Positions 30,913 to 35,188 of a stretch of 63,752 nt of DNA are shown here, in pieces (within the stretch, counting starts at the first letter, position 1; the number at the start of each line of letters is the position of its first letter). Position numbers and translations under genes: made by a program. The notes below the pieces were generated by a model. The model had not been told where the DNA came from, ran no database searches, and saw nothing but the letters and a program-made list of their open reading frames with translations. The DNA lies in the NCBI GenBank assembly GCA_031289095.1, contig JAITQD010000082.1, positions 1 through 63,752 on the forward strand, read 5' to 3'. The DNA is from Azoarcus sp. (GTDB lineage Bacteria > Pseudomonadota > Gammaproteobacteria > Burkholderiales > Rhodocyclaceae).

Positions 30913-32004
30913 TCACAACATCCCACCTTCCAGCGCCAGCCGCTGTTCATCGAGATAGCGTTGCAAAACTTCCGTACCGGGCAATTCCAACTGGTATTTG
31001 GAGACAAAAAGGCGGTTGTCCATGCCCGCCAGGGCGTATTCCGCCAGCGCCCGGTTTTTGTCCGCGCAGAGCAGGATGCCGACGGGCGGCTGATCGCCCT
31101 CAGCCATTTCATGTTTGCGATAATAAGCGACATAGGTATTGAGCTGCCCCAGGTGTTCATGGCTGAACGCGCCCACCTTGAGTTCCACCAGCACATGACA
31201 CTTGAGCAGGCGGTGATAGAACACCAGATCCACAAAAAAATGCTCCCCGCCGATAAGCAGCCGCTTTTGCCGGGCTTCAAAACAGAAACCACGTCCGAGT
31301 TCCAGCAGAAAATCCCGCATTTTTTCGATCAGGGCGGCTTCCAGATCGGATTCCGGCAGAACCTCGCCGGGCCGTAAGCCGAGGAATTCAAAAATGTAGG
31401 GATCGCGGATGACCAACGCGGGATCATCCTGAATAGCCTCCGTGTTGGCCATTTCCGAAAGTTTGGCCGGATTTTTCGACAGACCGGAACGCTCAAAATA
31501 CAGGCTGCCGATCTGCCGCTTGAGTTCCCGCACGGACCAGTTGCCTTTGGCGCACTCAATCTCGTAAAAAGAACGCTTAATGGGCGGCTCAAGTTCCATA
31601 AGCAGATCGAAATGGGAGAAAGAAAGCCTATCTATAAGCAATCCGCCGGTCAAGGCCAAAACGGGAGACACCGTCTCCCGTTTTGGCGGGAGCGAGCGGG
31701 CGGAAAGAAAATGGGGAGACAGCGTCTCCCGAATCTGCGGGTAGGACAGATAAAAAAGCCGGGGCCGACGCAGTTCGCGGGCGTCGCTCCTGGGAAGGCC
31801 GCATTGTTGGAGATGGTCAGCCAGCCGGGGCAAAAGCCTGTCGCCATAGGCGGCGCGATCCTCGCCCTGTTGCTCAAATTCCACGATATACGCGCCGATA
31901 AGCCAGTTACGCAAAGTCAACGCGGAATTGACGGTTTTTGAGGCCATGCCGCCGGCGACATGGTGAACCTCGGCAATGACCCGCACGAGCGCATTAAAAT
32001 TCAT
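30913..32004 (-). CDS. YhcG/DUF1016 PD-(D/E)XK nuclease-domain protein
   Basis: The 363-residue protein matches the YhcG/DUF1016 family often found beside type I restriction genes. It has an N-terminal winged-helix-like domain (about 1-100) and a C-terminal PDDEXK nuclease-like domain (about 200-350). The nuclease active-site strand reads FFVDLVFYHRLLKCHVLVELKVG, the D and E-L-K of the motif. It looks full length. The ATG at 32004 overlaps, as ATGA, the stop of an out-of-frame tail (KERRIAEIVGN type) left from an upstream gene, so it was once coupled to that gene. The linker (about residues 95-120) is encoded by two near-identical DNA palindromes. Confidence 0.82.
   Translation of the reverse strand: MNFNALVRVIAEVHHVAGGMASKTVNSALTLRNWLIGAYIVEFEQQGEDRAAYGDRLLPRLADHLQQCGLPRSDARELRRPRLFYLSYPQIRETLSPHFLSARSLPPKRETVSPVLALTGGLLIDRLSFSHFDLLMELEPPIKRSFYEIECAKGNWSVRELKRQIGSLYFERSGLSKNPAKLSEMANTEAIQDDPALVIRDPYIFEFLGLRPGEVLPESDLEAALIEKMRDFLLELGRGFCFEARQKRLLIGGEHFFVDLVFYHRLLKCHVLVELKVGAFSHEHLGQLNTYVAYYRKHEMAEGDQPPVGILLCADKNRALAEYALAGMDNRLFVSKYQLELPGTEVLQRYLDEQRLALEGGML
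31655..31687. repeat. 15-bp perfect palindrome inside the YhcG gene
   Basis: GCCAAAACGGGAGAC and GTCTCCCGTTTTGGC flank a 3-base ACC loop. Its core GGGAGAC-N3-GTCTCCC recurs 44 bases downstream. It encodes part of the inter-domain linker (around ETVSP). Confidence 0.7.
31714..31730. repeat. Second copy of the GGGAGAC-N3-GTCTCCC palindrome
   Basis: The 7-bp arms are identical to the core of the palindrome at 31655-31687, with AGC in place of ACC at the centre. It encodes the ETLSP segment of the YhcG linker. Confidence 0.65.
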
Positions 32005-32923
32005 GTCTTGCCCTCCGCCAGCAAGCGCTGAATGTTCCCCACGATTTCCGCGATGCGCCGCTCCTTTGCTTGAAGCGCAGCGCATTGCCGGGGTCGATGC
32101 GCGGCGCGTCGAGACCGTGCAGCAAAAGATTCATCTGGCAAAGGAGATACGGCAAGGGCTTCGGTTCGCAGCCCCGCAACGATTCTTCCTGCAAAACCTT
32201 GCGGTCGGCGACGGTTTTGACCTGTTGCGAGAGATGCCGATAAGCCTCGACGAGAAAGCCGCCGGTACCGCTAGCGGGGTCAAGCACGGTTTCGCCCAGA
32301 CGCGGATCGGTAACGGCGACCATGAAGCGCACGACGGCGCGCGGCGTATAAAACTCGCCGGAATCGCCCGCCGCGTCGCGCATTTCGCGCAGCATGGATT
32401 CGTAAAGCGCGCCCAGCGTGTGCAATTCGTCGCTGGAGGTAAAGTGAATGCCGCCGATTTTGTTGATGACATCGCGCAGGAGATAACCGCTTTTCATCCG
32501 GTTATCCACGCCCCGGAACACGGTGGCAATGACGTGGCGGCGGTCGTCGCGGTCGTCCTGCCCGTCGCTGCTGGAACCGGCAAGCGTGCGCAAGGTGTTG
32601 AACAGCCCCGCGCCCCATTCGCCATTCGGGAGGATAGTGTCCTCGTGGTTGATGAAGCCGAGCAATTCGTCGCCGGTAATGCCCTCCGGCTTCGACGCCC
32701 AGTCGCGCCAGCGATAAGGCGCATCAATAACCGGCCTGAACTTGATCCCGGCCAACACCGCCTCGTCTTCGCGCTGCAATTCCAGATCGTCTAGGAATTT
32801 CAGGAACATGATCCAGGTGAGCATCGGCAAGCGATCAAGATCGCCGTTCAAGCCCTTGTCCTTCCGCATGATGTCGCGGGCGGACTTGAGGAGGGAGGAG
32901 AGGGATTGGGCGGTAGTTGTCAT
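31994..32923 (-). pseudogene. hsdM: Truncated type I restriction methylase subunit HsdM
   Basis: The first about 285 codons are a good HsdM: N-terminal HsdM_N helices (LNGDLDRLPMLTWIMFLKFLDDLE), then SGEFYTPRAVVRFMV and SAM motif I, VLDPASGTGGFLVEAYRHL. The catalytic NPPF motif, which should follow about 40 residues after the end of the match (ALRFK), and the C-terminal third are absent. The last 24 codons are unrelated and out of frame relative to an alternative reading KERRIAEIVGNIQRLLAEGKT. A deletion near 32068 joined hsdM to the tail of another gene. It cannot be an active methylase. Confidence 0.85.
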
Positions 32924-32974: not shown

Positions 32975-33421
32975 TCATAGAACTACTTCCTTGGCCAGCA
33001 ACACCAAGACAACAAGTGCTCCATAAAATCCCCAAATAGAGAATGATTTCAACGCATCTACTTGGTGGTGAGACATTTCACCTTTTGGTATTACCGTAAA
33101 CAAATCATCGACGAAAGCCTGAGCACCATGCAATTTTTTAATGAATTCGTTGTATGAAACACGAAATGCGCGCTCCAACGCGAGGTAATACGCGTCAAGA
33201 GCCAAGAACAAGACTGAAGGAAGCAAGGCCAGCCAAGCTAATTCAGGCTTTCCTTTATCTGCAATCAGAACAAGGATCGCCGAGACGATAGTGATACACC
33301 ATGATTTGCATGATGTGCTGTTACCAGCCATGCGTTGGATGACGCTTTGAAGAATCTGAAGGTGCGCTTGAACTGCTACAGACTCTTCCGATAGTGAATT
33401 ACCCTGATTGTCCGTCGTCAT
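32975..33421 (-). CDS. Small three-helix membrane protein paired with the TIR-like gene
   Basis: The 148-residue protein has a polar N-terminus ending in an amphipathic helix (LQILQSVIQRMAGNSTSCK) and two closely spaced membrane helices (SWCITIVSAILVLIADKG; AWLALLPSVLFLALDAYYLAL). A cytoplasmic-type middle region follows, then a C-terminal helix (GFYGALVVLVLLA). I recall similar uncharacterised membrane proteins next to TIR-like genes, but no function is assigned. Its ATG overlaps the TIR stop as TAATG, so expression is coupled. A membrane effector activated by a TIR-made nucleotide is one hypothesis. It is not recognisably a Macro-ThsA, as no sensor domain is seen. Confidence 0.75.
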   Translation of the reverse strand: MTTDNQGNSLSEESVAVQAHLQILQSVIQRMAGNSTSCKSWCITIVSAILVLIADKGKPELAWLALLPSVLFLALDAYYLALERAFRVSYNEFIKKLHGAQAFVDDLFTVIPKGEMSHHQVDALKSFSIWGFYGALVVLVLLAKEVVL

Positions 33422-34002
33422 TAGCCTACCCATGTTACGAAGTTATTGAATCCATCGTCACCAACCCAGTCATAGACCGAATAAAATCGACTAAGATTAT
33501 AGGAATTGCCTTGATACTCCTTTTTGACATTAACGCGGTATGAAGCAGATCCATCAATTTTATCGTACTCAAGCCACTTGCCATTTGTTTTTTCCCAAAG
33601 CGTAGCCGTTAAGCCTGAGTCAGAGTATGAAACGGCCACATATTCAAGAGGATTTGCTCCCTTGTTTTTGGTTGTTCCATCCTTTGCCCTGATTGAGTTA
33701 ATATGCACCCCGAAAATGTGATTTCCTTTCTTGAAACTTTTTAGAAGTTCGTAACGAACCCATGGACGCTCAAATGTTTGACTTCCAATTAAAACGCAGG
33801 TATTAGATGTTTGCTCTAACCCATCGTTGATGAGACGCTTTAGCGCGATATCGCCCTGCTTCCTTGCCGATTCCCATATCGACGCGTCATAGTAACCACG
33901 GCTTTCACGATCTGGTTTTGTCATCCAGTGATTGCGAACCACGTTTGCTCGAAAGTCAACGACATCCTTGTAATGAAAACTGAAAAAAACTCTCTTAGCC
34001 AT
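33421..34002 (-). CDS. TIR-like (DUF1863/ThsB-type) protein
   Basis: The 193-residue protein starts MAKRVFFSFHYKDVVDFRANV, the opening of the MTH538/DUF1863 TIR-like family to which Thoeris ThsB belongs. It continues with GYYDASIWESARKQGD, the strand TCVLIGSQTFERPWVRYELLKS and GNHIFGVHINSIRAKDG. The Glu in RPWVRYEL sits where TIR NADases carry their catalytic Glu. The start is supported by AAGGAG nine bases upstream; the longer frame to 34101 belongs to the hsdR tail. It is visibly AT-richer than the flanks. It probably senses infection or makes an NAD-derived signal for the coupled membrane protein (inference). Confidence 0.82.
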   Translation of the reverse strand: MAKRVFFSFHYKDVVDFRANVVRNHWMTKPDRESRGYYDASIWESARKQGDIALKRLINDGLEQTSNTCVLIGSQTFERPWVRYELLKSFKKGNHIFGVHINSIRAKDGTTKNKGANPLEYVAVSYSDSGLTATLWEKTNGKWLEYDKIDGSASYRVNVKKEYQGNSYNLSRFYSVYDWVGDDGFNNFVTWVG

Positions 34003-34024
34003 GATCAATTTCTCCTTGGCGGTG

Positions 34025-35188
34025 TCACGCCGCATACAGCAGCATTTGCAATTGCCCCACAGCGGCGCTGAGTTGCCCCAGACCGCCAAACTTTCCCGCA
34101 ATCTCCGTCACGTTGCCATGCCGGTTAATTGGCGGAATTTGCAGAATGGCGGGGAGTATAAACTGAAGCTCCCCGTCAATGGCATACTTCTCCAGCAACT
34201 CGCCCAGAACCTCGCGGGCTTCCGGGCTGTAGGTTGCCAAGAACGCGGCCTGTTCCCTTTTCACCCGGTCGGCGCGTTGGCGGCGGGTGAGCATGGGGGC
34301 GTTGAAGGCGAGATGGCAGAGCAGGTCGAAGGAGTCGGCGTCCGGCTGTCCTGCCTGTTCGGCGACGGCGGCGAAGTCGATGCCGCGCTCGCCAAGTTGC
34401 TGGACGATCCGGGCGCGCTGGAGGGCGTCACTCCAGCGGGCGCGCAGGTCGTCCGGGCTGGCGCAGAGGGTGCGGACGTTTTCGGCGGTGTAGTCGGTGA
34501 GTTTGACGACGCGCAATTGTTTGCCGTTGGCGTCGAGTTCATAGACGAGTTCGGCGGCAATTTCTACCTGACCGCCGTCGAAATAAAACTTGTGGGGTTC
34601 TCCGATGGGCGGATCGACGAGGATAGGCGGGCCTTCTGTATCTTCGCCTTCTCCGGTTTCTCTGCTTTCCCCGGTTTCCGGTTCTTCGGGTGTTTCGATT
34701 TCGGTGTTTGTGGTTTGGCCGTATGCGTCGATTTCTTCCTGCGTGGCAAAGGCGGGATCACCGTCGAAATCCCGCCTATGCGTGATCGCGCCGCCTTCGA
34801 TTTTGTGACGGGCATCGCCAAAGATGGCAAAGGTTTTGTCCTTGGGGTCGTCTACGAGAAAATTGCGGTCGGCTAGATAAAGGATGCGCGGTTTGCGGGT
34901 GGGGTCGTTTTGGGCGTTCCATTTGGAAGACCAGAGTTTCCAGCAAATCTGGAAGGCGACGATTGTCTTGCCGGTGGCGAGGGTGAGCAATACGCGCTTT
35001 TGGCCCTGGGCGATGGCTTGTATGGCGCGGTCGATGGCGATGCGCTGGTAGTAGCGCGGTGCTTTGCCGGTGGTGACTTCGGCAGGGGTGAGCAGGCGGC
35101 GGGCGACGTCATCGGTGAGATTTTGCGCGGCGCGCGGCGGAACGCCTCGTTGGCGGCTACCCGAACGACCGTTTCAAGTCGAATTATC
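34025..35188 (-). pseudogene. hsdR: hsdR remnant: type I restriction subunit with internal deletion and broken Walker A
   Basis: The readable frame starts after a stop near 35188 and gives RAAQNLTDDVARRLL and YYQRIAIDRAIQAIAQGQKR. Helicase motif I then reads LTLATGKTIVAFQ where the family has LATGTGKT, a two-residue loss. After FGDARHKIEGG it jumps straight to the C-terminal HsdR region (GEPHKFYFDGGQVEIAAELVYELD to LSAAVGQLQMLLYAA). DECH/DEAH and motifs III-VI are therefore missing, as is the N-terminal nuclease domain. The gene is dead. Its end lies 22 bases before the TIR-like gene on the same strand. Confidence 0.85.

Follow-up and report, generated by a model that had tools for sequence, protein, structure and literature searches.

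In a 63,752-nucleotide stretch of DNA from Azoarcus sp. (contig JAITQD010000082.1, hereafter the window), two overlapping genes encode a ThsB-type TIR protein and a small membrane protein. We read them, with a probability of about 0.68, as a Thoeris-like unit in which the TIR would make an NAD-derived signal and the membrane protein would replace ThsA as the membrane-damaging effector. The observed basis of this reading is gene linkage, partner exchange and a conserved catalytic Glu. The pair is not a first sighting, as it is already catalogued as the PADLOC candidate PDC-M50, and both components were recognized with PADLOC-DB 2.0.0 (M50A, 4.3e-30, for the membrane protein and M50B, 3.2e-57, for the product of the overlapping TIR gene). 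The proposal of the first-pass annotation that the membrane protein may be the effector of a minimal TIR-signalling system is partly supported; it gained from the layout of one effector with several TIRs and from alternation with SIR2-SLOG ThsA, and what it lost is novelty. New here are the counts of M50A linkage to TIR or SEFIR genes, the varied partner classes and the alternation with SIR2-SLOG ThsA.

The term PDC-M50 was not found in papers of the literature searched. That literature, mostly titles and the beginnings of abstracts, also yielded no description of a system made of ThsB and a small membrane protein, and neither "type III Thoeris" nor "type V Thoeris" occurred in it as a phrase. 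The main text of the DefensePredictor paper (PMC13092281) contains none of the terms TIR, Thoeris or DUF1863. A preprint on the systematic discovery of TIR-based systems (10.64898/2025.12.03.692087), which is cited in PMC13232231, PMC13142454 and PMC13174449, may already describe the M50A type.

An intact cassette inside a decayed restriction locus

The TIR gene (33421..34002, minus strand, 193 amino acids) precedes the membrane protein gene (32975..33421, minus strand, 148 amino acids). As the first-pass annotation had read them, both open reading frames (34002 to 33421 and 33421 to 32975) are intact and joined by a TAATG stop-start overlap (33419..33423, minus strand), with one base common to both genes. 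A ribosome-binding-like motif, AAGGAG (34012..34017, minus strand), lies 9 bases 5' of the TIR start codon. The cassette was also said to be richer in AT than its surroundings, and its GC content is indeed 0.432, against 0.596 in the hsdR remnant on one side and 0.602 in the hsdM remnant on the other. It is the most AT-rich kilobase of the window, which has an overall GC content of 0.63; only 0.16% of 1028-base segments taken at 100-base steps have a GC content as low, and at 250-base steps only 3 segments fall below 0.48, all of them overlapping the cassette.

The placement of the pair between two restriction remnants was confirmed, with a truncated hsdR upstream and a truncated hsdM downstream, both on the minus strand. 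The hsdR remnant (34025..34990, minus strand) is of the EcoAI/EcoEI type and retains the C-terminal part (EcoEI_R_C, 7e-24); it scores 254 bits with the EcoAI-type model NF046051, for which the cut-off is 550, and its best stretch covers positions 538-767 of 768. The hsdM remnant (31994..32923, minus strand) retains the N-terminal part (HsdM_N, 3.4e-07; N6_Mtase positions 4-116 of 311). A gene for a YhcG/DUF1016 PD-(D/E)XK nuclease (30913..32085, minus strand; YhcG_C, 6.2e-55), a separate defence candidate named PDC-S02 (7e-123), overlaps the hsdM stump, and a deletion seems to have joined the two. A complete set of hsdR, hsdM and hsdS is absent at the locus; N6_Mtase and hsdS domains occur at two other places in the genome, on contigs C116 and C117, which hold all of its hsdS-domain matches. 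The pair probably entered an intact restriction operon, which then decayed on both sides of it.

Type I restriction genes were found in the flanks of 4 of 45 other M50A loci, a count made with narrow search seeds and unequal flanks, so that more restriction-linked loci may exist. The gene order is hsdM-hsdS-hsdR-TIR-ThsB-M50A in one of them (L013) and hsdS-M50A-ThsB-hsdR in another (L044), while in the other two the restriction genes lie a few kilobases from the pair (hsdS and hsdR in L043, hsdM in L035). PADLOC candidates of the PDC series come from a guilt-by-embedding approach (PMC12988326), an origin which fits this place inside restriction loci.

Retention of the cassette by selection is plausible, given that neither frame is broken and the invariant residues are all in place. 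With the DNA relatives used, dS was undefined in two comparisons and 2.67 in one, and being saturated or undefined it makes dN/dS unusable.

A ThsB-type TIR with a conserved catalytic glutamate

The product of the first gene had been described as a TIR-like protein of the DUF1863/ThsB type, and Pfam agrees (ThsB_TIR, 63.9 bits with a cut-off of 21.2, 2e-17). In PADLOC, the ThsB model (2.5e-54) scores next to M50B. The protein is 60% identical to the ThsB structure 9B7D in the PDB (113 of 189 aligned residues), and entry 6LHY, which is ThsB of the Bacillus cereus MSX-D12 Thoeris system, whose antiphage function has been tested (PMC7272460), gives the same alignment. The Glu of the WVRYE motif, previously assigned to the expected active-site place, is Glu85, and its column is E in 42 of 42 ThsB-like TIRs, a check which, like the TIR tree below, took ThsB hits with E 1e-30 or better and at least 120 amino acids and covers the ThsB-like class only. 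Because Glu85 is present in all 42, enzyme activity of the TIR is very probably needed. Close DNA relatives in E. coli were limited to 1 of 5426 genomes, in which the match covers the TIR gene only.

M50A is a predicted three-helix membrane protein

Aligned relatives of the membrane protein all match PADLOC M50A (54 of 54), and Pfam and NCBIfam scans of the window protein gave zero matches. The earlier remark that these 148 residues hold no recognisable sensor domain therefore stands, with no Pfam match and no known ligand-binding domain. Its fold search returned nothing significant either (best E 1.9), and a receptor role is thus without support from homology. Among the 25 of 31 weak families listed for the 54 M50A relatives, the macro family is absent, and SLATT_6, a profile of the SLATT 2TM effectors, matched 1 of the 54 members, weakly (E 0.086 only).

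The three hydrophobic helices noted at first are recovered in an AlphaFold2 model, which is helical with a mean pLDDT of 91.2 and predicts main helices at residues 15-56, 59-98 and 127-146. Hydrophobic peaks lie near 37-53, 61-77 and 127-143. Since the hydrophobic stretches span just the inner halves of the two long helices, their outer halves are expected to stick out of the membrane, presumably on the cytosolic side. In an alignment of 61 M50A sequences, the window protein included and the relatives being 28-82% identical to it, 11 positions are invariant (Q25, R30, M31, K39, F72, D76, L80, E83, S126, F132 and Y133). Counting from the turn at 57-58 of the predicted model, K39 should face D76 and R30 should lie near E83, and the helix limits suggest that these four charged residues may be linked in a conserved network close to the edge of the membrane.

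TIR and SEFIR genes adjoin M50A in several phyla

The first-pass annotation had named, as one refutation of its proposal, a lack of association between homologues of the membrane protein and TIR-like genes; the counts made here did not refute it. A TIR or SEFIR gene lies within 1.5 kb of M50A in 43 of 46 rows, or 42 of 45 distinct genes, and in the 3 unlinked rows (L017, L022 and L036) the contig ends at a distance of 54, 92 and 154 bases, respectively. Where a TIR or SEFIR gene is linked, it shares the strand of M50A and either overlaps it or lies within 10 bases of it in 39 of 43 rows. Two or three TIRs accompany a single membrane protein in 15 of the 46 rows, among which the second gene of L081 also counts the TIR of the first gene, with one of the TIRs counted for this second M50A gene (L081:10202-11062) having no Pfam match, and the TIRs of L083 lie on the opposite strand.

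The 46 rows join 41 genome-contig loci, found with two peptide patterns and biased to close relatives, with loci from genome searches and from plasmids, minus fragments and repeats; they amount to 45 distinct genes because L031 and L045 carry the same protein. The counts leave out fragments below 110 amino acids (L039-L041), the window's own copies (L001, L002, L047 and L058), repeats (L050, L051, L053, L059 and L075) and L049, in which the membrane gene is split and a TIR adjoins. Some TIR seeds were taken from counted loci, and the main classes, not each row, were later confirmed by Pfam or PADLOC.

Samples drawn in other ways gave a concordant picture. An evenly drawn set of 398 Pseudomonadota genomes held 6 M50A carriers, one with a split M50A gene, and a TIR adjoined in 6 of 6; among plasmids, an annotated TIR gene stood beside M50A in 3 of 3 matching records. 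In a cruder test, in which 120 rows were listed per search, the window's own row was left out and 50 shifted controls were run, 28 of 119 listed membrane-protein rows had exactly the longest-contig size of a listed TIR row, whereas the controls averaged 2.3 and never exceeded 6. For the membrane protein, 1468 relatives were reported by protein search and 2937 when a profile was used; hosts include Pseudomonadota, Bacillota, Actinomycetota, Latescibacterota, Cyanobacteriota and a Thermoplasmata archaeon, as named in its record. Chance neighbourhood was ruled out by linkage of 42 in 45 across several phyla.

Three loci deserve separate mention. The Vibrio chagasii plasmid NZ_AP025467.1 (L081:7998-12209) carries two diverged M50A genes, each with its own TIR class, and these paired units could reveal whether signals stay apart. 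In genome G235 (L049:1465-2006), the M50A gene is split between two reading frames while the adjacent ThsB is intact, which may reflect decay of the effector or an error in the sequence. Finally, an M50A gene at a contig start (L022:595-1308) is followed by a gene for a 237-residue protein, which is hydrophobic at its N-terminus and matches nothing in Pfam or PADLOC.

Exchange of partners points to the membrane protein as the probable effector

The partner TIRs that were scanned are best matched by one of eight PADLOC ThsB models, PDLC00431 (or its twin M50B), 00433, 00426, 00428, 00436, 00418, 00422 and 00419, or by bSEFIR, and for the 558-residue TIR partner in L028 no PADLOC model matched. 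The TIR component of the catalogued PDC-M50 is a single model, but the M50A genes compared here also have other ThsB classes and bSEFIR as neighbours. In two Chromatiaceae (L003:7998-10824 and L006:7998-10576), M50A is followed by a SEFIR/TIR_2 protein of 801 and 731 residues, respectively, with a long TPR region, and these partners would be sensor-like.

Linkage by itself does not separate sensor from effector. The case for the membrane protein as the effector has three parts: it is the constant member of the pair, it alternates with ThsA and its close relatives stand beside different TIRs. Among the 10 genomes of the sample whose M50B-type TIRs are strong matches (E <1e-40), M50A adjoins the TIR in 4, ThsA in another 4 and neither in 2, and the 4 ThsA proteins carry SIR2_2 and STALD domains. 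On a tree of 42 M50B-type TIRs the M50A label takes 7 changes, none of which can be avoided without breaking well-supported branches, and the 4 SIR2 rows are spread over 3 separate places; partners have therefore been exchanged. On the M50A tree, the sisters L007 and L008 (100/98) stand beside different TIR classes, as do L011 and L028, whose M50A proteins are 79% identical, and the nearest rows to the window M50A by path pair with SEFIR-TPR proteins (fork 89/87).

These observations bear directly on the possibility that M50A is a sensor or anchor, which would detect membrane or envelope stress in the course of infection and activate the TIR, and that the TIR is the effector, depleting NAD alone. 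We consider such a division of roles unlikely. M50A is a predicted membrane protein, the gene overlap fits a complex and TIRs can act as NADase effectors, for example in TIR-STING (PMC13142454), but it is M50A that stays constant while the TIRs vary, from the ThsB classes to SEFIR-TPR proteins with a repeat region of their own; moreover, one M50A can be common to several TIRs, and TIRs of the same family adjoin SIR2-SLOG ThsA in other genomes.

On the TIR tree, the M50A label nevertheless shows more clustering than most shuffles produce, with 8 of 500 reaching so low a value. Partner classes, with labels assigned by hand and one broad label as default, are likewise clustered on the M50A tree, where none of 200 shuffles reached so low a value. 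Clustering on both trees therefore indicates some specificity and leaves room for class-specific direct contact, in which an active TIR would bind the cytosolic part of the M50A hairpin and open it with no second messenger. Tight gene coupling and an M50A with no recognised ligand-binding domain would also suit contact activation, which we nevertheless judge improbable, since M50A proteins that are closely related have partners from different TIR classes or SEFIR proteins, a pattern more easily explained by a shared signal, and since Glu85 is invariant in the ThsB-like TIRs.

A role outside phage defence, whether toxin-antitoxin-like or housekeeping, is very improbable for the pair, as is a matter of chance neighbours, because, although the phage records searched gave no match, the linkage is far above chance in several phyla, PADLOC defence models match both genes and restriction genes flank the four other loci described above. 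A phage origin was rejected on the same searches, with no match in 50,697 phage records and none confirmed in the viral contigs of IMG/VR, where two short peptide patterns only were used.

A close relative of the window TIR also occurs in E. coli G3/10 (L080:8679-12276), and another in L055, within multi-TIR loci that include proteins of the SLOG family (LD_cluster3 and LD_cluster2) and in which no M50A or SIR2 ThsA was seen; this is perhaps another TIR-based system.

A proposed mechanism and its relation to Thoeris systems

Bacteria, plants and animals all use TIR signalling in immunity. In the literature consulted, the ThsA proteins that read TIR signals (SIR2-SLOG and TM-macro) have a separate ligand-binding domain. 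In the Thoeris-like unit we favour, infection would be sensed by the ThsB-type TIR, which, given its 60% identity to B. cereus ThsB, would use Glu85 to convert NAD into a small ADP-ribose-derived signal. M50A, for which the confident predicted model suggests an inner-membrane protein made of one long hairpin of helices (15-56/59-98) and a third membrane helix, would receive the signal through invariant residues on the cytosolic side, such as Q25, R30, K39, D76 and E83. It would then oligomerise and perturb the membrane, by analogy with TM-macro ThsA, and the infected cell would be stopped. Cyclic ADP-ribose is the first guess for the signal because B. cereus ThsB produces cyclic ADP-ribose signals (PMC13232231).

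A broader proposal, which we offer tentatively and would not yet bet on, is that M50A is a general minimal receptor-effector, binding a shared NAD-derived molecule through R30, K39, D76 and E83 and then opening the membrane; by TIR homology this molecule would most likely be cyclic ADP-ribose. If so, an M50A of about 120-150 residues would work with several ThsB classes as well as with SEFIR proteins. Its small size would be striking for a Thoeris-like effector, and the same helices would both sense the signal and kill. A protein of fewer than 150 residues that read a signal and damaged the membrane with no ligand domain would be a very simple receptor-effector, and M50A would then be a convenient test case for the gating of a membrane protein by an NAD-derived molecule.

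Among known systems, type IV Thoeris couples TIR signalling to a caspase-like, non-SIR2 effector; the M50A pair would be alike in signalling to a non-SIR2 effector, but M50A is no protease and the partner is a membrane protein. The general Thoeris layout consists of one ThsA and one or multiple ThsB (PMC11204291), with multiple thsB genes in over 50% of systems (PMC7272460). Our pair shares with it a ThsB-type TIR with the catalytic Glu, and the arrangement of a single effector gene accompanied by one or several thsB genes is found, as a layout only, in the 43 of 46 rows with one to three TIR or SEFIR genes. Compared with type I Thoeris of B. cereus MSX-D12, the kind of ThsB and this layout are the same, but the effector there is a SIR2-SLOG ThsA and the window pair has the 148-residue membrane protein instead. 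No SIR2-SLOG ThsA stands beside the window TIR, whose neighbours are the restriction remnants, and a SIR2-SLOG ThsA query gave no match in the window's genome.

Type II Thoeris likewise has a membrane effector fed by TIR proteins, the TM-macro ThsA, for which oligomerisation and membrane perturbation have been proposed (PMC11204291). The type II effector has a two-helix TM domain and a macro domain, whereas M50A has three predicted helices, two of them long, and no macro or recognised ligand domain. Type VI Thoeris signals through 2'cADPR (PMC13232231) and, as far as this description of its signal goes, would resemble the M50A pair, for which a cyclic ADP-ribose signal is proposed, as a TIR system. 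In the 398 sampled Pseudomonadota genomes, M50A was found in 6, and 4 clearly encode a SIR2-SLOG ThsA (E 1e-59 or better), small numbers obtained with one profile and one query protein, respectively, and M50A is therefore no rarer there than the best-studied Thoeris type.
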